A stretch of 64,000 bases of DNA from Kocuria turfanensis (GTDB lineage: Bacteria > Actinomycetota > Actinomycetes > Actinomycetales > Micrococcaceae): contig NZ_CP014480.1 in NCBI RefSeq assembly GCF_001580365.1, positions 2,171,008 through 2,235,007 on the forward strand. Direction: 5' to 3'. The notes under the pieces are model-generated. The model saw nothing but the letters and a program-made list of their open reading frames with translations. It had not been told where the DNA came from and made no database searches. A program made the position numbers and the translations under genes. Shown here piece by piece: positions 27,094 through 47,121 of this stretch (its first letter is position 1; every line of letters starts with the position of its first letter).

Positions 27094-27116
27094 CTTTACC
27101 TGTCAGTTGACAGAAA
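27094..27116 (+). promoter_or_regulatory. -10 plus palindrome shared with the carboxylase operon
   Basis: CTTTAC (27094-27099) as presumed -10 is followed directly by the palindrome CTGTCAGTTGACAG (27100-27113) and then AAA. The leftward carboxylase operon promoter has TAATAC, then CTGTC-N4-GACAG, then AAAA in the same register (47121-47098). This is a candidate operator, probably for the TetR protein encoded at 47230. Confidence 0.6.
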
Positions 27117-27151
27117 CTCCGCTCGGGCGGGGTCCAGGCGGGGAGAAGCAC

Positions 27152-28738
27152 ATGATCATTCTCGGGGTCGGCACCACCGTCCTGGCGGTGCTCGTCATCG
27201 GCGTGCTGGTGGCGCGCAAGGTCGACGGGGACAGCACCAACTATCTCGTGGCGGGACGCCAGCTGGGCATGCCGCTGGTCGCGGTCTCGCTCACCGCCGC
27301 GGCGGTGGACTCGAACGCCACCGTGGGCAACACGGACCTCACCTCCGGCTACGGCTTCTGGGCCGGGGCGTCCCTGGCCCTGGGCCTGGCGGTGTGCCTC
27401 CTGCTGGCCGGGCTCTTCCTGGCCAAGCCCATGAACCGGATGCGGCTGCTCACCCTCGGGGACTTCTTCCGGATCCGCTACGGCCGGCGCACGGAGACCC
27501 TGGCGTCCCTCATCATGATCTTCGCCTTCACGTTCCTGCTGGCCGGCAACCTCGTGGCCTGCGGGTTCCTGCTCGAGTACTTCGCGCACGTGCCCTACGC
27601 GGCCGGAGTGGTGGTGGCCAGCGCCCTGGTGCTCAGCTACACCCTGGCGGGCGGGCTGTTCTCCGACGCCTACACCGCGGTGCTGCAGACCGTGATCACC
27701 GTGGTGGCCGCCGTGGCGCTCATCGTGTGGGTGGCGCTCACCTACGGCATCGTGGTGCCGGAGGGCATGGGCCCGTTCGACCTGGAGCAGCTCACCAGCT
27801 CGGAGGCCGGCGCCCCGGTCAACTGGGCCACGCTGGTCGCCCTCGGCATCGGCGACCTCGTGGCGATCGACTTCATGCAGCGGATCTTCGGCGCGAAGAG
27901 CCCGCGGGTGGCGCAGCGCTCCTGCTTCCTGGCGGCCGGCACCACCGCCGTGATCGGCACGATCTTCGCCCTCGTGGCCCTCACCGCCTCCTCCGTGCTC
28001 GGGCTCTCCGCCGCGGACGGGCCGATCCTCTACGCCCTGCTGGGCGAGTACGCGCCTCCACTGCTTGCGGTGCTGGTGCTGTCCGGCATCGTGGCGGCGT
28101 CCTTCTCCACGGCCTCCGGCGCGATCCTGGCCACCTCGGCCGTGACCGTGCGCAACGTCTTCAACGTGCGGCGCACCGAGATCTCCGGCGCCCACGACCC
28201 GCTGCTGCGCTGGACGCGGCTGGCCATGCTCCCGGTGGTGCTCATCGGGATCCTGCTGGCCGTGCGGGTCAGCCAGACCGGGATCCTGCTGACCCTGGCC
28301 TTCGACCTGATGCTGGCGAGCCTGTCGGCGTCCTTCATCCTGGGCGCCTTCTGGAAGCGGCCCGGCGCCCGCGCCGCCCTGGCCGCGGCGGGCGTCGGCC
28401 TGACCAGCCGGCTGGTGTTCCTCGCGCTGACGCCCACGATCTACGGCGCCCCCAACGAGCTCTTCCACCTCGAGAGCACCCTCGTCACCAGCGCCTTCGA
28501 CGGCTGGGCCACCCTGCTGGCCGGCGCCCTGGGCTGGCTGACCTACGTGCTCGTGGGTCTCACCGCCGCCCGGCCCCAGGCCGAGACGGACACGCAGCGG
28601 CTGGAGCTGTACCGCCTCTACCGCGAGCAGACGCCCTCGGGCTTCACCCCGCGCGTGCGCGCGGGCGCGGCGGCCGAGCGCGCTGCCGCACCCGACGTCG
28701 AACCCGCCGTCGATCCGCAGGTCCCGGCGCGCGTCTGA
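27152..28738 (+). CDS. Sodium:solute symporter family transporter
   Basis: 528 residues from ATG 27152, which follows GGGGAGAAG; an in-frame TTG at 27107 is a poorer start inside the operator. Around 13 membrane helices. SSS-family features are NYLVAGRQLGMPLVAVSLTAAAVDSNATVGNTDLTSGYGFW in the first helices, DFFRIRYGRR, and SGIVAASFSTASGAILATSAVTVRNV. The C-terminal 50 residues are soluble. Promoter elements shared with the urea/guanidine carboxylase operon suggest it imports that operon's substrate or another nitrogen compound. A bidirectional terminator separates it from rhaB. Confidence 0.88.
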   Translation: MIILGVGTTVLAVLVIGVLVARKVDGDSTNYLVAGRQLGMPLVAVSLTAAAVDSNATVGNTDLTSGYGFWAGASLALGLAVCLLLAGLFLAKPMNRMRLLTLGDFFRIRYGRRTETLASLIMIFAFTFLLAGNLVACGFLLEYFAHVPYAAGVVVASALVLSYTLAGGLFSDAYTAVLQTVITVVAAVALIVWVALTYGIVVPEGMGPFDLEQLTSSEAGAPVNWATLVALGIGDLVAIDFMQRIFGAKSPRVAQRSCFLAAGTTAVIGTIFALVALTASSVLGLSAADGPILYALLGEYAPPLLAVLVLSGIVAASFSTASGAILATSAVTVRNVFNVRRTEISGAHDPLLRWTRLAMLPVVLIGILLAVRVSQTGILLTLAFDLMLASLSASFILGAFWKRPGARAALAAAGVGLTSRLVFLALTPTIYGAPNELFHLESTLVTSAFDGWATLLAGALGWLTYVLVGLTAARPQAETDTQRLELYRLYREQTPSGFTPRVRAGAAAERAAAPDVEPAVDPQVPARV

Positions 28739-28748
28739 GTGCTCGGGA

Positions 28749-28794
28749 CCCGCGCTGCGGGGCCGGTCCGGCGGGGCCGGCCCCACAGCGCGGG
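28749..28794. terminator. Bidirectional terminator between symporter and rhaB
   Basis: An 18-bp stem with one mismatch (28749-28766 with 28777-28794) and a ten-base loop fills the gap between the two convergent stop codons. It can end both transcripts. Confidence 0.8.
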
Positions 28795-28798
28795 ATGC

Positions 28799-30262
28799 TC
28801 AGCGCGCGGTGTCCGTCACGGTCCGCGGCTGGTAGCGGACGGGCTCGAAGGTGGTGGCCACGATGCCGCGCAGCGCCTCGAGGTCGCCCGTCACCAGGCC
28901 CGCGGCGCGGGCCTGGACCAGGACGTTGCCCACGGCGGTGGCCTCCACGGGGCCGGCGGCGACGGTGCGGCCGGTGCGGTCGGCGGTGAGCTGGCACAGC
29001 AGGGCGTTCTGGGACCCGCCGCCGACGACGTGGATCGTGCGGATGCGCTTGCCCGACAGGTGCTCGGCCTGCTCGATCGTGGTGGCGTAGGCGGCCGCCA
29101 GCGACTCCAGGATGCAGCGCACCACCTCGGCGCGGGTGCGCGGGGGCTCCAGGCCCCGCTCCTCGCACCAGGCCACGACCCGGGCGGGCATGTCCCCGGG
29201 GGCGGTGAAGCGCTCGTCGGTGGCGTCGACGACGGACACGGGCCGGGTCACCGCGGCGGCCTCGGCCAGCAGCGCCGCGAGGTCGCTGCTGCGCTGGGCG
29301 TCGCTGGCGCCGGGGCCGTCCCAGGTGCGGATCGACTCGGAGAGCAGCCACAGCCCCGAGACGTTCTTCAGGAAGCGCACCCGGCCGTCGAGTCCCCCCT
29401 CGTTGGTGAAGTTGGCGGCACGGCTCTCCGGGGTCAGGACCGGGGCGTCCAGCTCGATCCCGACCAGCGACCACGTGCCCGAGGAGATGAACGCCGCGGC
29501 GTCGTCGGTCGTCGGGACTGCGACCACGGCCGAGGCGGTGTCGTGGGAGCCCACGGCGGTGACCGCGAGCCCCGGGGCCGCACCCAGCTCGGCGGCGACG
29601 TCCGGCAGCAGCTCCCCGATCCTGGTGCCGGGGGTGACGACGGGGGCGAAGAGCTCGCGCGGGTAGCCGAGCCGGTCCATCAACCCGGTGTCCCACTGCC
29701 GGGTGCGGGCGTCGAGCAGCCCGGTGGTGGAGGCGTTGGTGGCCTCGGCGACCTGCCGGCCGGTGAGCCAGTAGCCGATCAGGTCCGGGACCAGGAGCAT
29801 CCGGTCGGCCAGGTCCAGGTCGCCGCGGACCCGGTCGACGGCCAGCTGGTAGACCGTGTTGAAGGGCAGGTGCTGCAGACCGGTGCGGGCGTGGAGCTCC
29901 TCCGGGGACACCCGTCCGTGCACGGCCTCCACCCCGACGGCGGTCCGCTCGTCGCGGTAGGAGTAGGGCGCCCCGAGCATCCGGCCGTCCCGCAGCAGGG
30001 CGTAGTCGACGGCCCAGGAGTCGATCCCGATCGAGACGACGAGCTCGCCCTGCCGCAGGGCCTGGGCCAGCCCGGCGGTCAGGGACCGGTGGAGCTCGGT
30101 GATGTTCCAGTGCAGCCCGGTCCGCCCGCCCTCGTGCAGGCGCACCGGCTGGTTGGGGAAGCGGGCGAGGTGGCGCAGCCGGAGCCGCCCGTCCTCGATC
30201 CCGCCCAGGATCACCCGTCCGCTGGTGGCGCCCAGGTCCACCGCCGCCACGGTTCTCGTCAT
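28799..30262 (-). CDS. rhaB: Rhamnulokinase
   Basis: 487 residues; FGGY-family kinase phosphorylating L-rhamnulose to L-rhamnulose 1-phosphate. The N-terminus VAAVDLGATSGRVILG is the phosphate-binding loop; SIGIDSWAVDYALL and GSHDTASAVVAVP are family motifs; IRTIHVVGGGSQNALLCQLTAD near the C-terminus binds the adenosine. Last gene of the leftward rhaI-rhaEW-rhaB operon, 28 bp after rhaEW. Confidence 0.95.
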   Translation of the reverse strand: MTRTVAAVDLGATSGRVILGGIEDGRLRLRHLARFPNQPVRLHEGGRTGLHWNITELHRSLTAGLAQALRQGELVVSIGIDSWAVDYALLRDGRMLGAPYSYRDERTAVGVEAVHGRVSPEELHARTGLQHLPFNTVYQLAVDRVRGDLDLADRMLLVPDLIGYWLTGRQVAEATNASTTGLLDARTRQWDTGLMDRLGYPRELFAPVVTPGTRIGELLPDVAAELGAAPGLAVTAVGSHDTASAVVAVPTTDDAAAFISSGTWSLVGIELDAPVLTPESRAANFTNEGGLDGRVRFLKNVSGLWLLSESIRTWDGPGASDAQRSSDLAALLAEAAAVTRPVSVVDATDERFTAPGDMPARVVAWCEERGLEPPRTRAEVVRCILESLAAAYATTIEQAEHLSGKRIRTIHVVGGGSQNALLCQLTADRTGRTVAAGPVEATAVGNVLVQARAAGLVTGDLEALRGIVATTFEPVRYQPRTVTDTAR

Positions 30263-30290
30263 GGTCGTCGCCTCCGCTGCCGAGCGCGCA

Positions 30291-32336
30291 TCAGCGCAGG
30301 AACGCGGCGGCCACGCCGGCGTCGACGGGCACGTGCAGGCCGGTGGTGTGCGAGAGGTCCCCGGCGGTGAGGGCGAACACCGCGTTGGCGACGTGCTCGG
30401 GCAGCACCTCGCGCTTGAGCAGGGTGCGCTGGGCGTAGAACTTGCCCAGCTCCTCCTCCGGCACCCCGTAGACCGCCGCGCGCTTGGCGCCCCAGCCGCC
30501 GGCGAAGATCCCCGAGCCGCGGACCACCCCGTCGGGGTTGATCCCGTTGACCCGGATCTGGTGCTCGCCCAGCTCGGCGGCCAGCAGCCGGACCTGGTGG
30601 GCCTGGTCGGCCTTGGTGGCGGAGTAGGCGATGTTGTTCGGCCCGGCGAAGACCGAGTTCTTCGAGGAGATGTAGACGATGTCCCCGCCCATGTCCTGGG
30701 CGATGAGCACCCGGGCGGCGTTCTTGGAGACCAGGAACGAGCCCTTGGCCATGACGTCGTGCTGGAGGTCCCAGTCGGCCTCGGTGGTCTCCAGCAGCGG
30801 CTTGGACAGCGAGAGCCCGGCGTTGTTGACCACCAGGTCCAGCCCGCCGAAGCCCAGCACCGCCGCGTCGATCGCCGCCTGCACGGCGGCCTCGTCGGCG
30901 ACGTTCACGGCCACGCCCACGGCCACGTCCGGGCCGCCGAGCTCGGCGGCGGCCGCGCGCGCCTTCTCGAGGTCGAGGTCGGCGATCACCACGCAGGCGC
31001 CCTCGGCGGCCAGGCGAGCGGCGATGGCCTTGCCGATGCCCGAGGCGGCGCCGGTGACCAGGGCGATGCGGGTGGCCAGCGGCTTGGGCTTCGGCATGCG
31101 GGCCAGCTTGGCCTCCTCCAGCGCCCAGTACTCGATGCGGAACTTCTCGGCCTCGTCGATGGGCGCGTAGGAGGAGATGCCCTCCGCCCCGCGCATGACG
31201 TTGATCGCGTTGAGGTAGAACTCCCCGGCCACCCGCGCGGTCTGCTTGTCCTTGCCGAAGGAGAACATCCCCACCCCGGGCACGAGCACGATCGCCGGGT
31301 CCGCGCCGCGGATGGCCGGCGAGTCCGGGCCGGCGTGGCGGTCGTAGTAGGCCTGGTAGTCGGCGCGGTAGGCCTCGTGCAGCTCCTGCAGCCGGCTCAC
31401 GCACTCCTGAACCGGGGCGTCGGCCGACAGGTCGAGGACCAGGGGCTTGACCTTGGTGCGCAGGAAGTGGTCCGGGCAGGAGGTCCCAAGGGCGGCCAGG
31501 CGGGGGTGCTCGGCGGCGGCCAGGAACTCCAGCACCCGGGCGTCGTCGGTGAAGTGGCCCACCTGCGGGCGGTCGTGACCGGCCAGCCCGCGGATCACCG
31601 GGGCCAGGGCCGCGGCCTTCGCCCGGCGCTCCGCCTCGGGCAAGGCCTCGTAGCCGTCCAGGACCGGGCCGAATGGCTCGTCCGGGGAGTGCTGGTCGAT
31701 GTAGGCCTCGGCGGTGTCGATGATCCACCGGGAGTTCGTCTCGGCCTCCTCGGAGGTCTCGCCCCAGGCGGTGATCCCGTGGCCGCCCAGGATGCAGCCG
31801 ATCGCCTCCGGGTGGGCCTCCTTGACCGCCGCGATGTCCAGGCCCAGCTGGAAACCGGGACGGCGCCAGGGCACCCACACGACCCTGTCCCCGAAGATCT
31901 CGGCGGTCAGCCGCTGCCCGTCGGCGGCGGTGGCGACCGCGATGCCGGAGTCCGGGTGCAGGTGGTCCACGTGGGCGGCGTCGACCAGGCCGTGCATGGC
32001 CGTGTCGATGGACGGGGCGGCCCCGCCCTTGCCGTGCAGGCAGTAGTCGAAGGCGGCGACCATCTCGTCCTCGCGCTCGACACCGGGGTAGACCTCCACC
32101 AGGGCCCGCAGGCGGTCCAGGCGCAGCGTGGCCAGGCCCTGCTCGGTGAGCGTGCCCAGGTCCCCGCCGGAGCCCTTGACCCACAGCAGCTCGACGTCCT
32201 CGCCGGTCACCGGGTCCGTGGCGGGGCCCTGGGCAGAGGTGTTCCCGCCGGCGTAGTTGGTGTTCTTCGGATCCGCGCCCAGCCGGTTGGAGCGTTCGAT
32301 GAGGGCTTCGACGACGGAGTGCGTGGTGGTGTGCAT
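30291..32336 (-). CDS. rhaEW: Bifunctional rhamnulose-1-phosphate aldolase / lactaldehyde dehydrogenase
   Basis: 681 residues, the full length of the RhaEW fusion. Residues 1 to about 400 form a class II aldolase/adducin domain with NYAGGNTSAQG, VDAAHVDHLHPDSGIAVATAAD (zinc-binding His pair) and LGGHGITAWGE. Residues about 420-681 are a short-chain dehydrogenase with ALVTGAASGIGKAIAARLA, a VVNNAGLSL region and YSATKADQAHQVRLLAAELG. It splits rhamnulose 1-phosphate to DHAP and L-lactaldehyde and oxidises the latter. It lies 156 bp downstream of rhaI. Confidence 0.95.
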   Translation of the reverse strand: MHTTTHSVVEALIERSNRLGADPKNTNYAGGNTSAQGPATDPVTGEDVELLWVKGSGGDLGTLTEQGLATLRLDRLRALVEVYPGVEREDEMVAAFDYCLHGKGGAAPSIDTAMHGLVDAAHVDHLHPDSGIAVATAADGQRLTAEIFGDRVVWVPWRRPGFQLGLDIAAVKEAHPEAIGCILGGHGITAWGETSEEAETNSRWIIDTAEAYIDQHSPDEPFGPVLDGYEALPEAERRAKAAALAPVIRGLAGHDRPQVGHFTDDARVLEFLAAAEHPRLAALGTSCPDHFLRTKVKPLVLDLSADAPVQECVSRLQELHEAYRADYQAYYDRHAGPDSPAIRGADPAIVLVPGVGMFSFGKDKQTARVAGEFYLNAINVMRGAEGISSYAPIDEAEKFRIEYWALEEAKLARMPKPKPLATRIALVTGAASGIGKAIAARLAAEGACVVIADLDLEKARAAAAELGGPDVAVGVAVNVADEAAVQAAIDAAVLGFGGLDLVVNNAGLSLSKPLLETTEADWDLQHDVMAKGSFLVSKNAARVLIAQDMGGDIVYISSKNSVFAGPNNIAYSATKADQAHQVRLLAAELGEHQIRVNGINPDGVVRGSGIFAGGWGAKRAAVYGVPEEELGKFYAQRTLLKREVLPEHVANAVFALTAGDLSHTTGLHVPVDAGVAAAFLR

Positions 32337-32492
32337 GATCAGGTGTCTCTCTCAGGGTCGAGGTCGAGAAAAGCGGAAGGAGAACAGGTCAGCCGGCCCA
32401 GCAGAGCCGGGATCCTGCCAACCCAAGGCGGCCAGTGGTCCACGTGCGGGTTGCAGGACTCCCGCCACGCAGCGAGGGACGCGGAAAGCGGG

Positions 32493-33659
32493 TCAGGAGG
32501 CCCAGGAGGCCTGGGTGCCACCGACACGCTCGGCATTGATCCGCTGCTGGTACCCGGAGTCGGCGAAGGCGGCCATCGGGTTGGCAGGCAGTCCACGCGA
32601 CTCCCGCCAGGCGGCCAGGGCGGGCCGGACGTCGGTGTAGAAGGCGTCCATCAGGATCTGGTGGGCCCCCAGCACGTCCCCGGCCTCCTGGGCGGCCGTC
32701 AGCGAGGCCCGGTCCAGCAGCAGCGCCCGGGCGGTCATCTCCTGGACGTTGAGCACCGAGCGGATCTGCCCGGGGATCTTCTCCTCGACGTTGTGGCACT
32801 GGTCGAGCATGAAAGCCACGCCCGAGGCCGGGTCCAGGCCCCAGCCGCGGACGACCTCCACCATGATGCGGAACAGCTGGAACGGGTCCGCGGCACCGAC
32901 GATGAGGTCGTCGTCGGCGTAGTTGCGGGAGTTGAAGTCGAAGGACCCGAGCTTGCCCAGCCGCAGCAGCTGCATCACGATGAACTCGATGTTGGTGCCG
33001 GGGGCGTGGTGGCCGGTGTCGAGGCAGACCACGGCCCGCTCCCCCAGGGCGGCGACCTGGGCGTAGGCGGTGCCCCAGTCCGGCACGTCGGTGTGGTAGA
33101 ACGCCGGCTCGAAGAACTTGTACTCCAGCACCAGCCGCTGCTCCGCCCCGACCTGGGCGTAGATCTCCGCCAGCGACTCGGCCAGCCGGTCCTGGCGGCC
33201 CCGCATGTCCTGCTGGCCGGCGTAGTTGGTGCCGTCGGCCAGCCAGATCTTCAGGTCCCGCGAGCCCGTGGCGTCCATGACCTCCAGGCACTCGAGGTGG
33301 TGCTCGATCGCCTTCCGCCGTACCGCGGGGTCGGTGTGGGTGAGGGAGCCGAACTTGTAGACGTCGTCCTGGAAGGTGTTGGAGTTGATCGTCCCGATGG
33401 CCACCCCCTGGTCGGCGGCGTAGCGGGCCAGGCCCGCGTAGTCGTCGACCCGGTCCCACGGGATGTGCAGCGCCACGGACGGAGCGAGCCCGGTCAGCCG
33501 GTGCACCATGGCGGCGTCGGCGATCTTCTCCTCCACCGTGCGTGGCGTCCCGGGCGTGGGAAACACCTTGAACCGGGTCCCGGAGTTGCCGAACGCCCAG
33601 GAGGGCAGCTCGATGGCCTGGGTGGCCAGCTGTGGCGCGATGTCGTCGAATGCAGTCAT
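32493..33659 (-). CDS. rhaI: L-rhamnose isomerase
   Basis: 388 residues from ATG 33659; upstream in-frame ATGs near 33734 lie inside the promoter and operator. TIM-barrel isomerase of the Pseudomonas stutzeri RhaI type rather than E. coli RhaA. Metal-site segments are LVLEYKFFEPAFYHTD, VVCLDTGHHAPGTNIEFIV and GSFDFNSRNYADDDLIVG. It converts L-rhamnose to L-rhamnulose. First gene of the leftward operon, repressed (inferred) through the operator at 33719-33730. Confidence 0.93.
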   Translation of the reverse strand: MTAFDDIAPQLATQAIELPSWAFGNSGTRFKVFPTPGTPRTVEEKIADAAMVHRLTGLAPSVALHIPWDRVDDYAGLARYAADQGVAIGTINSNTFQDDVYKFGSLTHTDPAVRRKAIEHHLECLEVMDATGSRDLKIWLADGTNYAGQQDMRGRQDRLAESLAEIYAQVGAEQRLVLEYKFFEPAFYHTDVPDWGTAYAQVAALGERAVVCLDTGHHAPGTNIEFIVMQLLRLGKLGSFDFNSRNYADDDLIVGAADPFQLFRIMVEVVRGWGLDPASGVAFMLDQCHNVEEKIPGQIRSVLNVQEMTARALLLDRASLTAAQEAGDVLGAHQILMDAFYTDVRPALAAWRESRGLPANPMAAFADSGYQQRINAERVGGTQASWAS

Positions 33660-33718
33660 GACCTTCACGTCTTCCGTGCGGGAGGCGGGGCGCGACCGGC
33701 TGGGCCGCGATATGCGTA

Positions 33719-33761
33719 TGAATCGTTTCATCACGGTAAGCGGTGAGGTGGATCACGTCAA
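33719..33761 (-). promoter_or_regulatory. rhaI promoter with LacI-type operator
   Basis: Leftward, TTGACG (33761-33756) and TACCGT (33738-33733) are spaced by 17 bp. Just downstream, at the expected start of transcription, is TGAAACGATTCA (33730-33719), a near-perfect palindrome with the CG centre typical of LacI/GalR operators. The regulator is encoded at 35863-36888. Confidence 0.75.
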
Positions 33762-33777
33762 GACACGAAGTCTTGAC
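33757..33777. repeat. Perfect 8-bp inverted repeat in the rha intergenic region
   Basis: GTCAAGAC and GTCTTGAC flank a five-base spacer and overlap the rhaI -35 element. It could be a second regulator site (catabolite control) or part of a hairpin; unassigned. The remaining parts of the 327-bp rhaI-rhaM gap hold no coding sequence that I can see. Confidence 0.5.
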
Positions 33778-33837
33778 CGTCGGCGCGCGACAACGGCAAG
33801 TCGCGGCACGCCGCGCGAGGGAAATCATGTCGAGCTA

Positions 33838-33865
33838 TTGAAACGTCTCAAAAAATCGCTACGAT
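33838..33865 (+). promoter_or_regulatory. rhaM promoter with LacI-type operator over the -35
   Basis: TTGAAA (33838-33843) and TACGAT (33860-33865) are spaced by 16 bp. The palindromic TTGAAACGTCTCAA (33838-33851), again centred on CG, covers the -35, so bound regulator would block polymerase. Confidence 0.75.
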
Positions 33866-33986
33866 AGCGGCGTAGTGAGAGGCAGCTCACACGTCGCGGG
33901 TCACGCGATGCCCGGTTTGCCGGCGAGCGCCACCGCCTTCCCTGCCGTCCCGGCCCGTCCGGCCGTCCACCACGAAGGAGTCCTGC

Positions 33987-34355
33987 ATGGGCACCCACGC
34001 CTCTTCTGCGGAGCTGCAGGAACTGATCCGGCTGCCCGAGGAGACCACACGCACCCGCCGGTGCTTCCTGCTCCACATCCGGCCCGAGAAGCTGGCCGAG
34101 TACGTGGAGGTGCACCAGCGGGTCTGGCCCGAGATGCTCGCCGCGCTGCACGAGACGGGCTGGCGGAACTACTCCCTGTTCCTGCGCCCCGAGGACGGGC
34201 TGGTGGTCGGCTGCTTCGAGGCCGAGGACACCGCCGCGACCGAGCAGCGCATGGCCGAGCATCCCGTCAACACGCGCTGGCAGGCCGAGATGGCCCAGTA
34301 CTTCGTCGAGGGCTCGCGCCCCGAGCCGCTGCTGCAGTACTTCCACCTCGCCTGA
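33987..34355 (+). CDS. rhaM: L-rhamnose mutarotase
   Basis: 122 residues, slightly longer than the usual 104 because of a polar N-terminal 20 residues. The domain reads RCFLLHIRPEKLAEYVEVHQRVWPEMLAALHETGWRNYSLFL, with the catalytic His in LHIRPE, and ends at MAEHPVNTRWQAEMAQYF. It interconverts the anomers of L-rhamnose to feed RhaI. First gene of the rightward rha unit, about 120 bp downstream of its promoter. Confidence 0.93.
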   Translation: MGTHASSAELQELIRLPEETTRTRRCFLLHIRPEKLAEYVEVHQRVWPEMLAALHETGWRNYSLFLRPEDGLVVGCFEAEDTAATEQRMAEHPVNTRWQAEMAQYFVEGSRPEPLLQYFHLA

Positions 34356-34412
34356 CCCGGCCCCCGTCGTGCGCTCCGCGCCACCACCGTCACCGTCGTC
34401 GAAGGATCACCC

Positions 34413-35711
34413 ATGACCACCACCAAGCTCGGAGGCTGGAAGGCCACCATCGCGGTCTCCATGTCCAACTACATCGAAGCGGGGTCCATCATCGCCCTGG
34501 CCACCAGCCTCGGGCTGTGGCAGGAGTACTTCGGCTTCACCAACCTCGCCGTCGGCCTCGTGGCCGCGCTCAGCGCCAACGCCTTCGGCGCGGCCCTGGG
34601 CGCGATGATCGGCGGCCCGCTCGGCGACCGGTACGGACGCAAGTTCATCTACACCTACGACCTGATCCTCTACATGATCGGCACCGCGTTCGTGATCTTC
34701 GCCGTCGCCCCGTGGATGCTGGTGCTCGGGGTGATCCTGACCGGCATCGCCGTGGGCGCGGGCGTGCCGGTGGCCTGGACCTACATCGCCGAGGAGGCGC
34801 CGTCGGAGGACCGTGCGAAGCACGTGGGCACCGCCCAGTTCGCGTGGTCGCTGGCTCCGGCGCTGGTGTTCCTGTTCGCCACCTTCGTGGTCCCGCTGGG
34901 GCTGCTGGGGAGCCGCATCGTCTTCGCCCACCTGTTCGTCGTCGCCTTCATCACCTGGTGGGTCCGCCGAGGGCTCTCCGAGTCCCACACCTGGAAGAAG
35001 TCGGACGAGGAGCGGCGCGCCTCGGAGGCCACCGGGATCAAGCGGCGCAACTACCGCGAGCTGCTCACCAGCTCGACCAATCTCAAGGCCCTGTTCTTCC
35101 TCATCGGCGTCTACGCCCTGTGGAACCTCGTCGCCGGTCAGATGGGCATCTTCATGCCGCGGGTGTACGAGACCGCCGGTGTGGAGTCGGCCACCCAGCA
35201 GAACCTGCTCCAGGTGCTCCTGTGGAGCTTCACGGTGCTGGCCACCTGGTTCGGCTTCATGCGCTACGGCGACCGCGTCGACCGCCGCCTGCTCTACGGC
35301 ATCGGCGCCGTACTGGGCATCGTCGCCTGGCTCCTGCTCGTCTTCGCCCACGTCACCATGCCGGTGCTGATCCTCTTCGCCGTCCTCTGGGGCGTCTCCG
35401 CCGGCATCGGCGCCCAGGCGTTCTACGCCCTCTGGGCCGCGGAGATGTTCGCGACCCGCTACCGGGCCAGCGCGCAGGGCGTGCTCTTCTTCGTCGCACG
35501 CATCGTCGTGGGTCTGCTCAGCTACTGGTTCCCCACCCTGCTCGCCGAGCACGGCGTGCCGTTCGTGGGCATGATCATGATCGGCGCTCTCGTGGCCGCG
35601 CTGCTCATCGGTGTGGTCGGAGCCCCGGACACCCGGGGCAAGAGCCTGGAGCAGATCGAGGAGGAGCGCTACGGCAAACCGGTTCCCCGGCCTGCCCGGA
35701 CGACGGTCTGA
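34413..35711 (+). CDS. MFS transporter, probable L-rhamnose permease
   Basis: 432 residues, twelve helices, metabolite:H+ symporter/sugar-porter type. GGPLGDRYGRKFIYTYDL is the helix 2-3 loop motif, PVAWTYIAEEAPSEDRAKHVGT the PESPR-like motif after helix 6, and AEMFATRYRASAQGVLFFVAR the matching motif in the second half. It is unlike the proton symporter RhaT. Rhamnose as cargo is inferred from its place 57 bp after rhaM in the rhamnose cluster. A strong terminator follows. Confidence 0.88.
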   Translation: MTTTKLGGWKATIAVSMSNYIEAGSIIALATSLGLWQEYFGFTNLAVGLVAALSANAFGAALGAMIGGPLGDRYGRKFIYTYDLILYMIGTAFVIFAVAPWMLVLGVILTGIAVGAGVPVAWTYIAEEAPSEDRAKHVGTAQFAWSLAPALVFLFATFVVPLGLLGSRIVFAHLFVVAFITWWVRRGLSESHTWKKSDEERRASEATGIKRRNYRELLTSSTNLKALFFLIGVYALWNLVAGQMGIFMPRVYETAGVESATQQNLLQVLLWSFTVLATWFGFMRYGDRVDRRLLYGIGAVLGIVAWLLLVFAHVTMPVLILFAVLWGVSAGIGAQAFYALWAAEMFATRYRASAQGVLFFVARIVVGLLSYWFPTLLAEHGVPFVGMIMIGALVAALLIGVVGAPDTRGKSLEQIEEERYGKPVPRPARTTV

Positions 35712-35731
35712 ACCGGCGCGGTGGGGACAAG

Positions 35732-35774
35732 GGGCTCCGGCCCATCGGCGGGACGCGGATGGGCCGGAGCCCCG
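35732..35774 (+). terminator. Terminator after the rhamnose transporter
   Basis: A perfect 16-bp stem (35732-35747 with 35759-35774) and an 11-base loop; the flanks ggggac and gtccc can extend it with a bulge. It separates the transporter from the regulator gene. Confidence 0.8.
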
Positions 35775-35821
35775 TCCCGCGCGGCGAGGCGGAACGCCCC
35801 CTCCCTCCGCGCCGTGCTCGC

Positions 35822-35827
35822 TAGAAT
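35822..35827 (+). promoter_or_regulatory. Putative -10 of the LacI-type regulator gene
   Basis: TAGAAT, 35 nt ahead of the GTG at 35863. No copy of the rha operator is visible here, so the regulator is probably not autoregulated by the same sequence. Confidence 0.45.
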
Positions 35828-35862
35828 CGAGGCTCCGCACGTACCCGAGGGAAAGTGACGAC

Positions 35863-37045: not shown

Positions 37046-37549
37046 GTGATGACGACGAAACAGCCTTTCGAGACGCTGGTGACCCAGCACGGTCCGGTCG
37101 TGTGGCGGGTCTGCCGGGCGGTCCTGAGCATTCCTGCGGACGCCGAGGACGCGTGGTCGGAGACGTTCGTGGCCGCGATGCGCGCCTATCCCGGCCTCCC
37201 GGACACGGCCAACGTGCAGGCGTGGCTGGTCACCATCGCCCACCGCAAGGCGGTGGACGTGGTCCGGGCCCGGGCGAGGGCGGCGGTGCCGGTGGCGGTC
37301 CTGCCGGAACCGCCCGCGCACCGGGACGCGACACCCGAGCACGACTCCCCGGTGTGGGCGGCGGTGGCCGCCCTGCCGCCCCGGCAGCGCCACGTCGTGG
37401 CCTACCGCTATCTGGGCGGGCTGCCCTACCGGCAGATCGCCGAGCTGCTGGGCGGCACCCCGGAGGCCGCCCGCCGGGCCGCCGCCGACGGCCTCGCCGC
37501 CCTGCGCCGGGCCCTGACCACGACCGATCTCGAAGGAGAGGACCGATGA
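37046..37549 (+). CDS. ECF-type RNA polymerase sigma factor
   Basis: 167 residues, compact even for an ECF factor. Region 2 covers VWRVCRAVLSIPADAEDAWSETFVAAMRAYP and NVQAWLVTIAHRKAVDVVRAR; region 4 has LPPRQRHVVAYRYLGGLPYRQIAELLGGTPEAARRAAADGLAALRR. GTG 37046 and ATG 37049 are both possible starts; no Shine-Dalgarno is clear. Its stop overlaps the Ogt start by 4 bp. No anti-sigma gene is adjacent. It may control its own unit in response to alkylation damage, but this is inference. Confidence 0.87.
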   Translation: MMTTKQPFETLVTQHGPVVWRVCRAVLSIPADAEDAWSETFVAAMRAYPGLPDTANVQAWLVTIAHRKAVDVVRARARAAVPVAVLPEPPAHRDATPEHDSPVWAAVAALPPRQRHVVAYRYLGGLPYRQIAELLGGTPEAARRAAADGLAALRRALTTTDLEGEDR

Positions 37550-38166: not shown

Positions 38167-38201
38167 GACCTGCCTGCGCCGTGCCCGTTGTCCAGGAGCA
38201 C

Positions 38202-38264
38202 GGCGCAGGAGCCCCGACCCGGACGTTCCGGCGCAGGAGCCCCGACCCGGACGTTCCGGCGCAG
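38202..38264. repeat. 28-bp tandem duplication at a convergent junction
   Basis: Two identical 28-bp copies (38202-38229 and 38230-38257), starting ggcgcaggagcc, are followed by seven bases of a third. They lie between the ogt stop and the amidase stop. Exact identity suggests a recent duplication. Confidence 0.9.
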
Positions 38265-38316
38265 CCGGTCCGGCCCGGGAGTCAGGACGCGGCGGAACCG
38301 GCTCGAGCCGCCCCGT

Positions 38317-39768
38317 TCAGATCCTCGGCGCGATCTCCGCGTGCCGCGTGGCCCGGTCGTAGGCGCGGGCCGTCCGCAGCAGCTCGACGTCGCGGCCGTG
38401 CGCGGCGACCAGCTGCAGACCCACCGGCAGACCGCCGCCGGTGAAGCCACCCGGGACCGAGACGGCCGGGCACCCGGTGGCCGAGATCAGGCTGGCCGAG
38501 CGCATCCACTCGACATATGTCTGCATCGGCATACCAGCGACCGTGCGGGGCCAGCGCTCCTCGGAGGGGAACGGCAGCACCTGGGAGGTGGGCGTCAGCA
38601 GCACGTCCCACCGGTCGAAGAACGCGCGCACCGCCTCGTGCAGGCGGGTGCGCGCCAGGGCGGCGTCCATGAGCTGCTCGGCGGTGAGCGCGAGTCCCTT
38701 CTCCACGTTCCAGACGATCTCCGGCTTCACGAGCTCCCGGTGCTCGGCGACCACGGTGCGCAGGTTTCCGGCCATGTCGAAGGCCCGGGTCGTGTCGAAG
38801 ACCTCGTCGGCGTCGCGCAGGTCGGGCACGGCCTCCTCGACCACGGCCCCGAGCTCCTCGAACACCCGCGCCTGGTCCCTCAGGACCTCGACGATCCCCG
38901 GTTCCACCGGGACGCCGAGGCCGAAGTCCGTGCTCAGCCCGATCCGGACGCCGGCGAGGGGACGGGCATCCGGGTCGGCGGGGGCCTCGGCCGCCAGCGC
39001 CCGGAATCCGGCCCGGTCCGCCGGGCAGGCCAGGGGGATCCGAGGGTCCGGTCCGGCCAGCACGGACATCGCCAGGGCGAGGTCGTCCACGCTGCGGGCG
39101 AGGGGGCCGGACCGGCCCAGCCACGCCCAGGCGTTGCCGGCCGGCGTCGAGGGCACGACGCCTGCGGAGGGGCGGAATCCGGTGATGTTGCAGAACGCGG
39201 CCGGGTTGCGCAGGGACCCGCCCATGTCGGAGCCGTCGCCCAGGGGCTGGATGCGGGAGGCGATCGCCGCGGCCGCCCCGCCGCTGGAGCCGCCGGCGCT
39301 GCGGGTGCGGTCGTAGGGGTTGTGCGTGGTGCCGAAGAGCTCGTTGAAGCTGTGCGAGCCGGCGGCGAACTCGGGCACGTTGTTCTTGCCGGTGCTGATC
39401 ACCCCGGCCGCCCGGAAGCGGGCCACGATCAGGTCGTCGTGGTCGGGCACGTGCTCGGCGAACACCGGGGAGCCCAGGGTGGTGCGGATCCCGGCGGTGG
39501 CGTGGGTGTCCTTGTGGGTCATCGGCACCCCGTGCAGGGGCGGCAGCTCGTCCGCCGGGGTGACGGCGGTGCGCTCGTCGGCTCGCGCGGCCGCCGCGTA
39601 GGCCTCTTCCCGGACCTGGGTGACCACGGCGTTGACGGCCGGGTTCACGGCGTCGATCCGGGCGAAGTGGGCGTCGAGCACCTCCCGCGCGGACACGGTC
39701 CGGGAACGGACGGCCGCGGCGAGGTCCCGGGCAGACAGCAGGCAGAGGTCGGTGGTGTTCGTGCTCAT
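38317..39768 (-). CDS. Amidase-signature family hydrolase
   Basis: 483 residues from ATG 39768. Amidase signature parts are the catalytic Lys in MTHKDTHATAG, the Gly/Ser segment SAGGSSGGAAAAIASRIQPLGDGSDMGGSLRNPAAFCNITGFRPS with cis-Ser and nucleophile Ser, and the C-terminal PAVSVPGGFTGGGLPVGLQLV. It hydrolyses a C-N amide bond, substrate unknown. It is the last gene of the leftward carboxylase operon, 55 bp after the allophanate hydrolase C-terminal gene, so a role in the same nitrogen pathway is likely. Confidence 0.88.
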   Translation of the reverse strand: MSTNTTDLCLLSARDLAAAVRSRTVSAREVLDAHFARIDAVNPAVNAVVTQVREEAYAAAARADERTAVTPADELPPLHGVPMTHKDTHATAGIRTTLGSPVFAEHVPDHDDLIVARFRAAGVISTGKNNVPEFAAGSHSFNELFGTTHNPYDRTRSAGGSSGGAAAAIASRIQPLGDGSDMGGSLRNPAAFCNITGFRPSAGVVPSTPAGNAWAWLGRSGPLARSVDDLALAMSVLAGPDPRIPLACPADRAGFRALAAEAPADPDARPLAGVRIGLSTDFGLGVPVEPGIVEVLRDQARVFEELGAVVEEAVPDLRDADEVFDTTRAFDMAGNLRTVVAEHRELVKPEIVWNVEKGLALTAEQLMDAALARTRLHEAVRAFFDRWDVLLTPTSQVLPFPSEERWPRTVAGMPMQTYVEWMRSASLISATGCPAVSVPGGFTGGGLPVGLQLVAAHGRDVELLRTARAYDRATRHAEIAPRI

Positions 39769-39823
39769 GCTCGCCACCGTACGGCCCATGAGCCGTGAGC
39801 CGGCGGAGGCGGTCCCGCGCCGG

Positions 39824-40357
39824 TCAGGCGGACGCCTCGCGGTAGGCGACCCAGCCGCCGTGGGCCGTGATGTCCTGCGCGCCCTCGAGCGCGCACGGCT
39901 CCACGAGGAACCCGGGCAGCTCCCGGCCGTCGGCGAGGCGGACCCGGCCGATGGCCATGGGCGCGGACAGCCCGGCCACGAAGGTGCCGAACGCCGCGGC
40001 GCCCAGCGCCCAGACCTCCACGGCCAGGGCGGCCCCGCCGTCCGGGACGCGGAGCACCCCTGGCTTGGCCGGCACGGTGTCCAGGGCGAACATCCGGTAC
40101 TCGGGGGCCGTGGTGGTGGCCTCCACGAACCGGGCGGAGCGCTCGGCCAGCTGGTGGTGCAGCGGCTGGCCGCGCAGGTGCGCTCCCGCGACCACGAGCA
40201 GCAGCTCCGGGGCGCCGGGACCGGCGACCGCGGAGGCGGCACCCGAGGGCGCACCGTCCGCAGCCGCACCGTCCGCAGCCGCACCGTCTGCAGCCGCACT
40301 GGCCGAGCACGCATCCGCCGTGCGCACGGCGGGCGAGGACGCGGTCTCAGCAGCCAC
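39824..40357 (-). CDS. Allophanate hydrolase C-terminal domain as a separate gene
   Basis: 177 residues from GTG 40357. After an Ala/Asp/Gly-rich linker of about 45 residues with GAAADGAAADGAAADG repeats, the domain reads ELLLVVAGAHLRGQPLHHQL, YRMFALDTVPAKPGVLRV, AVEVWALGAAAFGTFVAGLSAPMAIGRVRLADG and EGAQDITAHGGWVAYRE. This is the C-terminal domain of AtzF-type allophanate hydrolases, which converts N-carboxycarbamate to ammonia and CO2. Normally it is fused to the amidase domain. Here it overlaps the amidase gene's end by 11 bp in another frame, with GGGAGAG upstream of its GTG. Confidence 0.85.
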   Translation of the reverse strand: MAAETASSPAVRTADACSASAAADGAAADGAAADGAPSGAASAVAGPGAPELLLVVAGAHLRGQPLHHQLAERSARFVEATTTAPEYRMFALDTVPAKPGVLRVPDGGAALAVEVWALGAAAFGTFVAGLSAPMAIGRVRLADGRELPGFLVEPCALEGAQDITAHGGWVAYREASA

Positions 40358-41684
40358 CGAAGCCGCTCTCCCGGGCCACGTCCACGAGCCGGGCGTCCTC
40401 GAAGGTGTCCCCCACCAGCTGCACGCCGAACGGCAGGCCGTCCACCCGGCCCGCCGGCACCGCGAGCGCGGCGAGGTCGAGCAGGTTGGCGAAGTTCGTG
40501 AAGCGGCCCATCCGGCTGTTGGCGCCCACGGGGTCGGCCTCGAGCTCGGCGAGGGTGGGGTGGAAGGTGGTGGTGGGCAGCACGAGGGCGTCGATCGCAC
40601 CGAACACCCGGCGGGCCGTGCGGGCGCAGCCGTCCAGGAACTCCTGGTCGGCGAAGACCCGGTGGGCCGGGATCCGCCCGGCCGCGGCGATGATCCGCCC
40701 CACCGTCGGGTCGACCTCCCCGGGGCGGGCCTCCACGAAGGCGCCCACGGCCGTCCAGCGCTCGGCGACGAACGCGCCGTCGTAGAGCAGAGCCGCGGCG
40801 TCGAGGAACGGCTCGACGTCGACCGGCTCGGTGCGGAACCCGCGGTCCTCGAACTGCCGCACCGCGGCGTCGTAGGCCTCGGCCCAGCCGGGGGCGAGCT
40901 CGCCCAGCTGCTCGGGCACGGCGTACCCGATGACGCGCTCGAGCCCGGCTGCGCGCCGCGGGACGCAGGCGCGGGAGCGGGCGTCGCCGTCGTCGACGCC
41001 GGCCATGACGTCCGCCGCGAGCCGGGCCAGGCGGAGCTCGCGGGCCATGGTGGTCACCACGTCCTGGCTGCGGCAGGCCGGCACCACCCCGCTGGCGGGC
41101 ACCACGCCCTTGGTGGGCTTGACGCCGTAGAGCCCATGCAGGGCGGCGGGCACCCGGCCGGAGCCGGCGGTGTCCGTGCCGAGGGCGAAGTCGGCGAACC
41201 CGAGGGCCACGGCCACGCCGGAACCGCTGCTGGACCCGCCGGAGATCCGCGTGGGGTCCTCGGCGTGCCGCACGGCGCCGTACGGGCTGCGGGTGCCGAC
41301 GAGCCCGGTCGCGAACTGGTCGAGGTTGGTGCTGCCGAGCACCACGGCGCCGGCGTCCTTGAGCCGGCGCACCACCGTGGCGTCGGCCGCGGGCTCGTAG
41401 GCGAAGGCGGGACAGGCCGCCGTGGTCGGCAGCCCGGCCACGTCGATGTTGTTTTTCACCGCGAACAGCGTGCCGGCGAGCGGCAGGTGCTCGCCCGCCG
41501 CGCGGGCGGCCAGGGCCCGGGCGACGTCCGCGGCCACGTCGGCCTCCGGGCGCAGGCCGATCCAGACCTCGGGCCGGTCCGCCTCCTCGATCAGCCGGTA
41601 GCGCTGCGCCACGAGATCGTGGGCGGCGCGCTCCGCCGGTGCGGGCCCGTTCATGGTGGGGGCGGCCGTGGTGGTGGTCGTCAT
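40347..41684 (-). CDS. atzF: Allophanate hydrolase, amidase domain
   Basis: 445 residues; hydrolyses allophanate, the product of urea carboxylation or carboxyguanidine deimination. Amidase-signature motifs: Lys in GTLFAVKNNIDVAGLPTTAACPAFAY, GSTNLDQFATGLVGTRSPYGAVR, SGGSSSGSGVAVALG with nucleophile region GTDTAGSGRVPAALHGLYGVKPTKG, and PTTTFHPTLAELEADPVGANSRMGRFTNFANLLDLAALAVPAG, which is specific to allophanate hydrolases. The usual C-terminal domain is encoded by the next, overlapping gene; together they make 622 residues, the normal enzyme length. GAGGAGG precedes ATG 41684. Confidence 0.92.
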   Translation of the reverse strand: MTTTTTAAPTMNGPAPAERAAHDLVAQRYRLIEEADRPEVWIGLRPEADVAADVARALAARAAGEHLPLAGTLFAVKNNIDVAGLPTTAACPAFAYEPAADATVVRRLKDAGAVVLGSTNLDQFATGLVGTRSPYGAVRHAEDPTRISGGSSSGSGVAVALGFADFALGTDTAGSGRVPAALHGLYGVKPTKGVVPASGVVPACRSQDVVTTMARELRLARLAADVMAGVDDGDARSRACVPRRAAGLERVIGYAVPEQLGELAPGWAEAYDAAVRQFEDRGFRTEPVDVEPFLDAAALLYDGAFVAERWTAVGAFVEARPGEVDPTVGRIIAAAGRIPAHRVFADQEFLDGCARTARRVFGAIDALVLPTTTFHPTLAELEADPVGANSRMGRFTNFANLLDLAALAVPAGRVDGLPFGVQLVGDTFEDARLVDVARESGFGGC

Positions 41685-41720
41685 CTCTGTCCTCCTCGTT
41701 CTCGGGATCCGCGCCGCGGC

Positions 41721-45482
<3,762 letters not shown>

Positions 45483-45484
45483 GC

Positions 45485-46192
45485 TCACGCCTCCTGACCG
45501 GTCGGAGCCACCGTGCCGGCGGAGACGATCATCTCGGCGCGGGAGGGGTCGAAGCCGTTGCACGGGTTGTTGACCTGCGGGCAGTTGGAGACCACCACCA
45601 GCACGTCCCGCTCCGCCCGCAGGCTCACCGACAGCCCGGGGGCGGAGATGCCGTCCACGATGCCGAGGGCGCCGTCCGGGTCCACCGGGACGTTCATGAA
45701 CCAGTTGACGTTGGAGACCTGGTCCCGCTTGCCCATGCCGTACGTGGAGAGCTCCGCCAGGAAGTTGTCCGCGCACCCGTGCTGGGACCACGTGTGGTGG
45801 CCGTAGCGCAGGGTGTTGGACTCCTTGGAGCAGGCCCCGCCGAGGGTGTCGTGGCGCTCGACGTCCGTGCCGACAACGGTCAGCAGCGGGTCGTGCTCGT
45901 TGCTGCGCAGGACCGACCCGTCGCTCAGGTAGACGCTGTCCTGGCCCTGCAGGGTGGCCTGCGCACTGTAGGCGCGGGCGGTGTCCGCGGCGTCGTAGAC
46001 GAGGAAGTCGACGGCCTGGTTGCCGTCCACGTCCACGATGGTGAGCACCTGGCCGGCCCGCAGGACGGTGGACCAGGGGGCGAGCGGGGCCACGGTCTCG
46101 CGGCGCAGCTCGGGGCCGAACCGGGACGCGAGGTCCGCCGCGCGGTCGGCGGGGATCGTGGCGGGGACCGGGGTGGTGGTGGGAGCAGTCAT
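45485..46192 (-). CDS. DUF1989 urea-carboxylase-associated protein, possible carboxyguanidine deiminase subunit
   Basis: 235 residues. Family motifs include LRAGQVLTIVDVDGNQAVDFLVYDA, DTLGGACSKESNTLRYGHHTWSQHGCADNFL and VNWFMNVPVDPDGALGIVDGISAPG, with conserved Cys and His residues fit for metal binding. Pairs of DUF1989 proteins beside such carboxylases act in some bacteria as carboxyguanidine deiminase (CgdAB), making allophanate and ammonia. This is the second of the pair here. GAAAGGA-type site upstream of ATG 46192. Confidence 0.88.
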   Translation of the reverse strand: MTAPTTTPVPATIPADRAADLASRFGPELRRETVAPLAPWSTVLRAGQVLTIVDVDGNQAVDFLVYDAADTARAYSAQATLQGQDSVYLSDGSVLRSNEHDPLLTVVGTDVERHDTLGGACSKESNTLRYGHHTWSQHGCADNFLAELSTYGMGKRDQVSNVNWFMNVPVDPDGALGIVDGISAPGLSVSLRAERDVLVVVSNCPQVNNPCNGFDPSRAEMIVSAGTVAPTGQEA

Positions 46193-46223
46193 GGTGGGTT
46201 CCTTTCCTCGTCGCTGGAGGGGC

Positions 46224-47075
46224 TCAGGCCAGGCCGCGGGCGCGGAGGTACTCGGCGGTGTTCTGGTAGGCGCGGCGGCGTTCGGGCGCCGAGTTCCAGG
46301 CGGGGGTCTCGGGGGCGGTCGCCCGGGCGCGCCAGGCGACGACGTCGAGCGGAGTGCTCACGTACTCCTCGCGCGGGTCCAGGGGGTGGGCGGCATTGGC
46401 GAGCAGCAGCACGCACGGCATCTCGGTGACCAGGGTCAGCGAGGCGCCCGCCCCGGCGGAGCCCGTGAACACCGGCCGGCCGGAGGGACCGACCTCCACG
46501 CCCTGGAAGAACGAGACGCAGGGCGGGACGTCGCGCCGGGAGAGCCCGTGCTTGGCGCCCGCCAGGACGAGCAGCTCGCGCCCGGCCGGGCTGGGGCCCT
46601 GGGGCTGCCCGTCCCCGTAGCGCTCCTCGTTGCGGGCCCGGGAGCTGGCGCCGTAGAGGGCGTCGTGGTGGCCCGAGCTGTCCTCCACCACGGTGGCCAG
46701 CGCACGGCCCTGGTCGGAGAGCAGCACCTGGCCGGCGCCGGTGCGGACCTGCCACTGGATCTTCATCGTGTCCGCCACGTTGAGCCGTTCGAACGGCTCC
46801 GCGGCGTTGTAGAGCAGCACCGAGGCGCAGGCGTCGCCGGCCACGTCCGTGAGCCGGACGGCGGTGCCGCGGGCCAGGACCTTGTGCGTGTAGTTGCCGC
46901 CCGCCACGCGCTCGGCCCACACGATGTCCTCCGGCGCCACCCGCGCCGGGGCGTCCCCGTAGGTCGTGGCGGGCACGGTGGGGCTGCACTCGACGACGGT
47001 GCCCTCCTGGGCGCGGGCGTGGGCCCGGGCCCCGGCGGTCGTCCCGGTGGTGGACGTGGTCTCGGTGACGGTCAT
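46224..47075 (-). CDS. DUF1989 urea-carboxylase-associated protein, possible carboxyguanidine deiminase subunit
   Basis: 283 residues from ATG 47075 with GAAGGAG. The core has VAGGNYTHKVLARGTAVRLTDVAGDACASVLLYNAAEPFERLNVADTMKIQWQ, GAKHGLSRRDVPPCVSFFQGVEVG and LLLANAAHPLDPREEYVSTPLDVVAW, a DUF1989 pattern with conserved Asn, Cys and His. First gene of the leftward operon; 31 bp before its partner. The N-terminal 20 residues are Thr-rich, as in several proteins of this window. Function inferred from the operon type. Confidence 0.88.
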   Translation of the reverse strand: MTVTETTSTTGTTAGARAHARAQEGTVVECSPTVPATTYGDAPARVAPEDIVWAERVAGGNYTHKVLARGTAVRLTDVAGDACASVLLYNAAEPFERLNVADTMKIQWQVRTGAGQVLLSDQGRALATVVEDSSGHHDALYGASSRARNEERYGDGQPQGPSPAGRELLVLAGAKHGLSRRDVPPCVSFFQGVEVGPSGRPVFTGSAGAGASLTLVTEMPCVLLLANAAHPLDPREEYVSTPLDVVAWRARATAPETPAWNSAPERRRAYQNTAEYLRARGLA

Positions 47076-47097
47076 GGCCGGCTCCTTCTCGGACGGA

Positions 47098-47121
47098 TTT
47101 TCTGTCGCTTGACAGGTATTA
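47098..47121 (-). promoter_or_regulatory. -10 and palindromic operator of the carboxylase operon
   Basis: Leftward, TAATAC (47121-47116) is followed directly by CTGTC-aagc-GACAG (47115-47102) and AAAA. The start point would fall inside the palindrome and the leader would be about 35 nt, too short for a guanidine riboswitch. The same arrangement stands before the symporter at 27094-27116. Confidence 0.7.

Follow-up and report, generated by a model that had tools for sequence, protein, structure and literature searches.

We analysed a 64,000-nucleotide stretch of the genome of Kocuria turfanensis (contig NZ_CP014480.1, positions 2,171,008 to 2,235,007; hereafter the window), in which a gene of the sodium:solute symporter (SSS) family and a leftward operon for a biotin-dependent carboxylase carry the same palindrome, CTGTC-N4-GACAG, in their promoters, with a gene for a TetR-family repressor beside the operon. 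Together they would form a putative guanidine-assimilation regulon, whose genes and sites are as follows.

27053..27068, plus strand: GlnR-type box GTTAC-GGAAGG-GAAAC, upstream of the symporter (consensus from PMC10704036)
27092..27099, plus strand: symporter -10 region, a weak consensus match as judged by eye
27100..27113, plus strand: palindrome of the symporter promoter, predicted AmtR-type operator CTGTCAGTTGACAG (sequence, copy counts, conservation)
27152..28738, plus strand: SSS-family sodium:solute symporter, 528 aa, proposed guanidine importer (PF00474; synteny and guanidine-I riboswitch association of its relatives)
38317..39774, minus strand: second amidase (PF01425), start uncertain, directly downstream of the allophanate hydrolase
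40347..41684, minus strand: allophanate hydrolase, 445 aa, amidase domain only (NF006043 558.7 bits, cut-off 487; TIGR02713 507.5 bits, just below 511.05; PF01425)
41721..45491, minus strand: biotin-dependent carboxylase, annotated urea carboxylase, with the guanidine-carboxylase signature (TIGR02712 1725.7 bits; Asp702 at Kluyveromyces lactis position 1330, Asp at 1584)
45485..46192, minus strand: UAAP2, DUF1989, proposed carboxyguanidine deiminase subunit (TIGR03424 over cut-off, PF09347)
46224..47075, minus strand: UAAP1, DUF1989, 283 aa, proposed carboxyguanidine deiminase subunit and first gene of the operon (translation, PF09347)
47102..47115, minus strand: palindrome of the operon promoter, predicted AmtR-type operator CTGTCAAGCGACAG, overlapping the expected transcription start (sequence, copy counts, conservation)
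47118..47126, minus strand: extended -10 element TGC-TCTAAT of the operon, convincing as judged by eye
47156..47171, minus strand: GlnR-type box GTTAC-CTCCCC-GAAAC, upstream of the operon (consensus from PMC10704036)
47230..47919, plus strand: TetR-family repressor of the AmtR subfamily, 229 aa (structure matches, alignment)

Two other frames over UAAP1, 46189-46989 and 46189-47076, gave no family match, and 46224-47075 is the correct one.

The enzymes, the symporter and the regulator

According to PMC11410670, guanidine carboxylase requires Asp at K. lactis position 1584, and Asp at position 1330 distinguishes it from urea carboxylase. When the window carboxylase, a TIGR02712 protein, was aligned to the K. 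lactis chain 5i8i, with the chain position counted by hand and taken as the K. lactis number, Asp702 was located opposite Asn1330 of the yeast enzyme and the Asp of a GLGD motif was retained at 1584. Asp stands at both positions in all 65 relatives that could be aligned there. The carboxylase gene is adjoined by the genes of two PF09347 proteins, UAAP1 and UAAP2, and PF09347 is the family of the carboxyguanidine deiminase subunits CgdA and CgdB (PMC11410670). Considering the signature of the carboxylase together with the family of both UAAP proteins, we read the pathway as guanidine assimilation and not as a generic or a urea pathway. The genome also encodes a separate urease.

The symporter matched PF00474 with 99.5 bits against a cut-off of 22.8, and thus lies outside ABC and APC, the families of the guanidine carriers named in PMC12186494 and PMC11410670. 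Its nearest SSS relatives of solved structure are choline transporters. Two residues set its subfamily apart: Asp53 and Asp62 are each present in at least 97% of the 80 sequences of our symporter tree, against Gly in seven of seven other SSS proteins. Such charged residues would suit a cation as substrate. Considering what is established for the SSS family and the co-control of the gene with nitrogen-limitation boxes, described below, the symporter would act in import rather than export.

The preliminary description of this DNA had placed a TetR gene starting at 47230 beside the second palindrome; the gene is there, and its product belongs to the AmtR family. Its six best matches among PDB chains have E values from 9e-32 to 1e-24 and the next one 4e-8, so that a gap of 16 orders of magnitude separates the last of the six from the next family. 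Three of these chains are named AmtR, and the other three, named only as TetR family, have nearly the same aligned sequence as the named chain 5mqq. We take 5e57 to be the protein of Mycobacterium smegmatis and the remaining AmtR-type chains to be that of Corynebacterium glutamicum. The alignments to the six chains span residues 4-198, 16-198, 17-213 or 22-201 of the window protein, and the next structure covers residues 20-81 only. No second close AmtR relative was found in the genome, where the next match has an E value of 6.9e-6. In C. glutamicum AmtR, Gln53, Ser55 and Tyr57 are in tight contact with the operator core (PMC2723105), and all three are retained in the window protein.

The two promoters and their predicted operators

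The promoter stretch of the symporter reads TACCTGTCAGTTGACAGAAACTCCG in the rightward direction, with the palindrome at 27100-27113, and that of the operon reads TACCTGTCAAGCGACAGAAAATCCG on the minus strand, with the palindrome at 47115-47102. Each on its own strand and in one register, the two share the string TACCTGTCA-N3-GACAGAAA-N-TCCG, and accordingly their similarity reaches past the palindrome on either side. This agrees with the earlier proposal of two palindromes in one register about 20 kb apart. That proposal had also put a -10 element before each of them: the extended -10 of the operon bears this out, and its CTCTAATACCTGTCAAGCGACAG is also present in a Microbacterium locus (L050), whereas at the symporter the -10 region is only a weak match.

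The palindrome can be written as CTGT-N6-ACAG, and thereby has the AmtR operator form CTNT-N6-ANAG. In the abstract of Petridis 2016, the AmtR motif of M. smegmatis is reportedly CTGTC-N4-GACAG, identical to the window palindrome. The AmtR box of C. glutamicum is given as tttCTAT-N6-AtAGat/aA (PMC2723105), which equals in length and register the form TTTCTGT-N6-ACAGAAA that is frequent in the relatives.

In the window, these two sites are the only exact copies of the palindrome. When up to two mismatches were allowed, 27 matches were found against a shuffle mean of 44, indicating that only the exact palindrome is informative. The genome of 4.16 Mb contains six exact copies, compared with two for a reversed control pattern, so that the many copies at unrelated genes which would have spoken against a shared operator were not seen. 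Three of the other four copies lie in apparent coding sequence and one lies upstream of an apparent ftsH, as judged by eye. A loosened genome search with ACCTGTC-N4-GACAG and up to two mismatches was uninformative (181 forward and 197 reverse matches, control 266 and 235); its listing omitted the two exact sites and was not used. The exact palindrome upstream of the apparent ftsH, CTGTCCGCTGACAG (L006:1501-1514; G000:C1:3091942), belongs to an intergenic block kept in the Kocuria genome G016 (L177). The same 14-mer is also found in the genomes G008 and G013, and its flanks are unlike those of the AmtR-type sites.

Both promoters also carry a box of the GlnR consensus gTnAC-n6-GaAAC (PMC10704036), a feature of nitrogen limitation that the preliminary description did not contain. 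At the symporter an additional half-site, tAAAC, precedes the box by 6 nt, and the half-sites of the box are the same in three Kocuria relatives (L037-L039). The genome encodes a GlnR relative (G000:C1:1283720) that matched the PDB chain 8hig with an E value of 1e-73 and 4o1h, which is named GlnR, with 2e-24. Among relatives, strict boxes were found at 11 of 80 symporter promoters and 16 of 66 UAAP1 promoters, compared with 0.0044 per 300 bp overall. Boxes at both promoters indicate that the control is dual.

As for the surrounding genes, the region between the symporter and the operon (28799-36888) is occupied by a rhamnose-type catabolic cluster with rhamnulokinase, rhamnulose-phosphate aldolase/dehydrogenase, an MFS carrier and a LacI-type regulator. 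An N-acetylglutaminylglutamine amidotransferase gene (TIGR03104; 47994-49778) adjoins the TetR gene, and a class A beta-lactamase-like protein, far under the cut-offs of the listed NCBI beta-lactamase families, is encoded upstream of the symporter (26090-26962).

Conservation of the arrangement in relatives

The best 80 of 106 symporter relatives from a scan of genome contigs were compared, with flanks of up to 10 kb; among named organisms, Kocuria has the closest symporter genes (89-93%). By tblastn, the neighbourhood holds the carboxylase cluster and a TetR gene at 62 of the 80 loci, the cluster without a TetR gene at six, a guanidinase at six, a TetR gene only at three and none of these at three; among the last six loci, L037 and L086 are short contigs. 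The cluster thus lies within the fetched flanks in 68 loci. At 35 loci a leftward cluster and a rightward symporter gene enclose the TetR gene, and at 19, mostly from Nocardia and Glycomyces, UAAP1 follows the symporter within 300 bp. Considering that the symporter and the operon are at most 10 kb apart in most relatives, the wide separation in the window is a Kocuria arrangement. In the Kocuria genomes G008 and G016, which retain both palindromes and both GlnR-type boxes, the palindromes are spaced 14.8 kb and 16.0 kb apart, respectively.

The palindrome is present at 55 of the 80 symporter promoters (32 exact, 23 with one mismatch) and at 38 of 66 UAAP1 promoters (24 exact, 14 with one mismatch). 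Loci with UAAP1 behind the symporter have another gene in first place. In 1,544,357 bp there are 55 exact palindromes, 54 of them inside the 47,760 bp of symporter and operon promoter windows and one next to the TetR gene of L062. Random 300-bp windows from the same loci contained a palindrome within one mismatch in 509 of 20,000 cases, real sites included. The link between the symporter and a distant carboxylase operon, which had been proposed from the shared promoter module, is thus borne out by synteny and by the palindrome kept at both promoters. In L062 (Nocardioides mangrovi; L062:5250-6896) the AmtR-type TetR gene adjoins a glutamine-synthetase-family gene near the symporter, and the carboxylase cluster was not found in the fetched flanks.

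A second sample was taken from the class as a whole. Of 246 genomes chosen evenly across it, 24, including that of the window, had a UAAP1 match at E 1e-30 or better; among the 23 other loci, L212 is identical to L101 of the first set, with no further overlap at 97% identity. A TetR relative lies in the 1.5-kb flank at 12 of these 23 loci, and in 12 of the 12 the palindrome is found at most 90 bp upstream of UAAP1 (nine exact, three with one mismatch). Eight of the 12 operons have a GlnR-type box exactly 54 bp upstream of the palindrome. Where no TetR gene is adjacent (11 operons), an exact palindrome precedes UAAP1 in two (L200 and L208) and none is present there in nine. L208 has three further palindromes towards a divergent symporter, so that four palindromes (three exact, one with one mismatch) lie between this symporter and UAAP1, three of them in tandem, 22 bp apart.

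In this second sample the gene directly before UAAP1 encodes an APC amino-acid permease at three of the three loci tested by Pfam (L201, L204, L209), as in the arrangement described for M. smegmatis, and the same order was seen by eye in L202 and L206. In L212 an SSS symporter occupies the slot upstream of UAAP1. Accordingly, the two carriers appear as alternatives in one slot.

Six symporter relatives of the first set (L088, L104, L108, L111, L114 and L116), 51-60% identical to the window symporter, adjoin an arginase-family gene and not the carboxylase cluster; the family was assigned by Pfam for L108 and by tblastn for the other five. The L108 protein matched 9fek with 705 bits and 7esr/7oi1 with 567 bits, and other ureohydrolases with at most 185 bits. 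These chains are deposited as putative or probable agmatinase 2, and 7oi1 is presumably the guanidine hydrolase of Synechocystis. For guanidinase a signature of Thr/His/Trp is described (PMC11410670). It fits five of the six proteins only under a uniform offset of two residues from the 9fek numbers, and is therefore supporting and not decisive; the unshifted numbering gives Gly, Arg and Thr, and the sixth sequence is cut off before the signature Thr.

Rfam detected a guanidine-I riboswitch in four of the six guanidinase loci. In L108 (riboswitch 5373-5492, gene at 5544) and L116 (9856-9973, gene at 10001) it lies directly upstream of the symporter gene, and in L104 and L111 upstream of the guanidinase-symporter pair. 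The guanidinase neighbours and these riboswitches provide separate evidence in favour of guanidine as the substrate. Upstream of the symporter in these six loci there is no palindrome within one mismatch. Rfam was run on seven of the 68 carboxylase loci and nine of the 12 others: in those seven carboxylase loci there was no guanidine-I riboswitch, and a scan of the window detected no riboswitch, so that the window would not belong to a guanidine-riboswitch regulon. Searches of the genome for guanidine-I and -III found none, one of them having scored only 150 of 1886 first-look candidates. A riboswitch model (R1) matched only its four source sequences in the 80 loci and the window, which is weak evidence for absence elsewhere.

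In a tree of the window symporter and those of 79 of the 80 loci (L107 was dropped by length), the smallest clade that holds the guanidinase-linked symporters includes those of carboxylase-cluster Nocardia (support 0.74); support for the node that unites the subfamily is low (0.35). Accordingly, the same carrier subfamily seems to function in both pathways, with a different control in each.

A putative guanidine regulon, its rivals and its meaning

Based on the operator sequences, GlnR-type boxes, gene families, signature residues and synteny of these loci, together with the riboswitches beside the symporter's relatives, we consider it very probable that the symporter and the operon form an AmtR/GlnR-controlled regulon for guanidine assimilation, with the SSS symporter as guanidine importer. 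Binding of the proteins to DNA, activation, repression, the inducer and guanidine transport are predicted from the sequence, and the regulon may work as follows. Under nitrogen limitation, GlnR would bind the box upstream of the -10 element and activate transcription. The AmtR-type repressor encoded at 47230-47919 would sit on CTGTC-N4-GACAG over the -10 and start region of both promoters and block transcription. Release of the repressor would need a signal, for which guanidine or one of its metabolites is the simplest candidate. The induced symporter would then import guanidinium with sodium. The carboxylase would convert guanidine into carboxyguanidine, the two DUF1989 proteins would convert this into allophanate, and the allophanate hydrolase would produce ammonia and CO2.

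Several findings weigh against this reading. Tyr58 and His59 of C. glutamicum AmtR differ in the window protein. An exact palindrome that another Kocuria genome retains stands before the apparent ftsH, where nothing obvious connects it with guanidine, and on the other side 25 of the 80 symporter promoters have no palindrome within one mismatch and at 10 of the 68 cluster loci both promoters lack one. Strict GlnR-type boxes occur at only 11 of the 80 symporter and 16 of the 66 UAAP1 promoters, and the genome's own amtB promoter, used as a positive control, has no strict box; a looser pattern gave only GAAAC-n6-GCAAC and one poorer match there. Two of the six guanidinase loci have no guanidine riboswitch at the Rfam threshold, where the contig of one (L088) begins inside the guanidinase gene. 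Also, M. smegmatis AmtR is not released by urea or amino acids (PMC4222082); guanidine is not listed among the compounds tried in the section of that paper concerned.

Regarding other explanations of the genes, the database names (urea carboxylase, urea amidolyase associated proteins) suggest a urea regulon, in which a urea carboxylase pathway is supplied by a Dur3-like SSS urea symporter. The UreA/Dur3-type urea transporters of fungi and plants do belong to the SSS family, which counts for this explanation, and the process in M. smegmatis is termed urea metabolism in PMC4222082. Nevertheless, we consider a urea regulon quite improbable, considering the Asp found in all 65 aligned relatives at the carboxylase position that separates the two enzymes, the DUF1989 pair that a urea pathway would not need, the guanidinase and guanidine-I riboswitches beside symporter relatives, and the urease of the genome. 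A somewhat better case, still an unlikely one, can be made for another guanidino compound such as methylguanidine or creatine as the substrate of the symporter, or for several cations of which guanidine is one. The choline transporters among the closest solved structures would fit such a substrate, as would the title of a paper that places creatine genes of a C. glutamicum strain under AmtR control, whereas every recognised pathway neighbourhood in the 80 loci is one of free guanidine (68 carboxylase, six guanidinase) and the riboswitch family beside the relatives is Guanidine-I.

Regarding the palindrome, it could be bound by another regulator, or the promoters could be under GlnR only, with the adjacent TetR protein controlling something else. 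TetR proteins need not act on their neighbours, and binding of this one to the palindrome is a prediction; yet the palindrome accompanies an adjacent TetR gene in 12 of 12 operons against two of 11 without one, the C. glutamicum AmtR box (PMC2723105) shares its length and register, and the genome has no second close AmtR relative, so that we see little chance for this explanation. That the two sites are functionless and near promoters by chance would agree with the three of six exact genome copies in apparent coding sequence, but the palindrome is conserved at these two promoters in different families, which eliminates chance, and we give this explanation practically no weight.

Both halves of the proposed guanidine regulon are already known separately, namely the control of such an operon by AmtR and GlnR and the guanidine carboxylase pathway. 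In M. smegmatis, AmtR repression and GlnR activation act on an operon of two unknown reading frames, a carboxylase and an amidase: a glnR mutant shows no nitrogen response of this operon, an amtR mutant expresses it more strongly, and the DNA upstream of its first gene is bound by AmtR (PMC4222082). That system has an amino-acid permease as transporter and its amtR gene at another place, whereas the window has an SSS symporter 20 kb off and a pathway read as guanidine. In C. glutamicum, the repressor subfamily and the length and register of the operator are alike, but the operator core is CTAT, the regulon covers more than 30 nitrogen genes, release is by a PII protein, and nitrogen metabolism is under AmtR alone, without GlnR (PMC2723105, PMC4617892, PMC10704036).

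As in the window, the guanidine carboxylase operons of Pseudomonas syringae, Raoultella and Vreelandella encode a carboxylase, two deiminase subunits and an allophanate hydrolase (PMC11410670, PMC12186494, PMC12508155), but they have guanidine riboswitches and ABC importers in place of AmtR- and GlnR-type sites and an SSS symporter. In the comammox bacterium Nitrospira inopinata, a guanidine-I riboswitch, a guanidinase and a secondary transporter occur together (PMC11410670), likewise in four of the six guanidinase-type symporter relatives; its transporter is a predicted APC permease, whereas the actinobacterial loci have an SSS symporter. A 2025 paper states that there are no studies on potential guanidine importers (PMC12508155). 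In a literature search that left most subscription papers outside, no report of an SSS-family guanidine importer was found, as judged mostly by titles and the openings of abstracts, nor one that joins AmtR with guanidine, and the motif string CTGTC-N4-GACAG gave nothing relevant.

If the symporter imports guanidine, it would add a new transporter family to guanidine uptake. One SSS subfamily, present in several actinobacterial families, can be named as a strong candidate for a guanidine importer, and the small AmtR regulon, described as urea metabolism, would be recast as guanidine assimilation. More tentatively, and with the odds rather against it, AmtR outside Corynebacterium may be a guanidine-responsive repressor, a protein sensor that takes the place of guanidine riboswitches. 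The two types of control would then have been swapped within one symporter subfamily, with AmtR operators at carboxylase-type loci, guanidine-I riboswitches at guanidinase-type loci, and the SSS symporter retained in both as guanidine importer. If this is true, the AmtR regulon of mycobacteria, described as one for urea, would likewise serve guanidine. In bacteria with AmtR acting under GlnR, the signal for its release thereby becomes a testable question.

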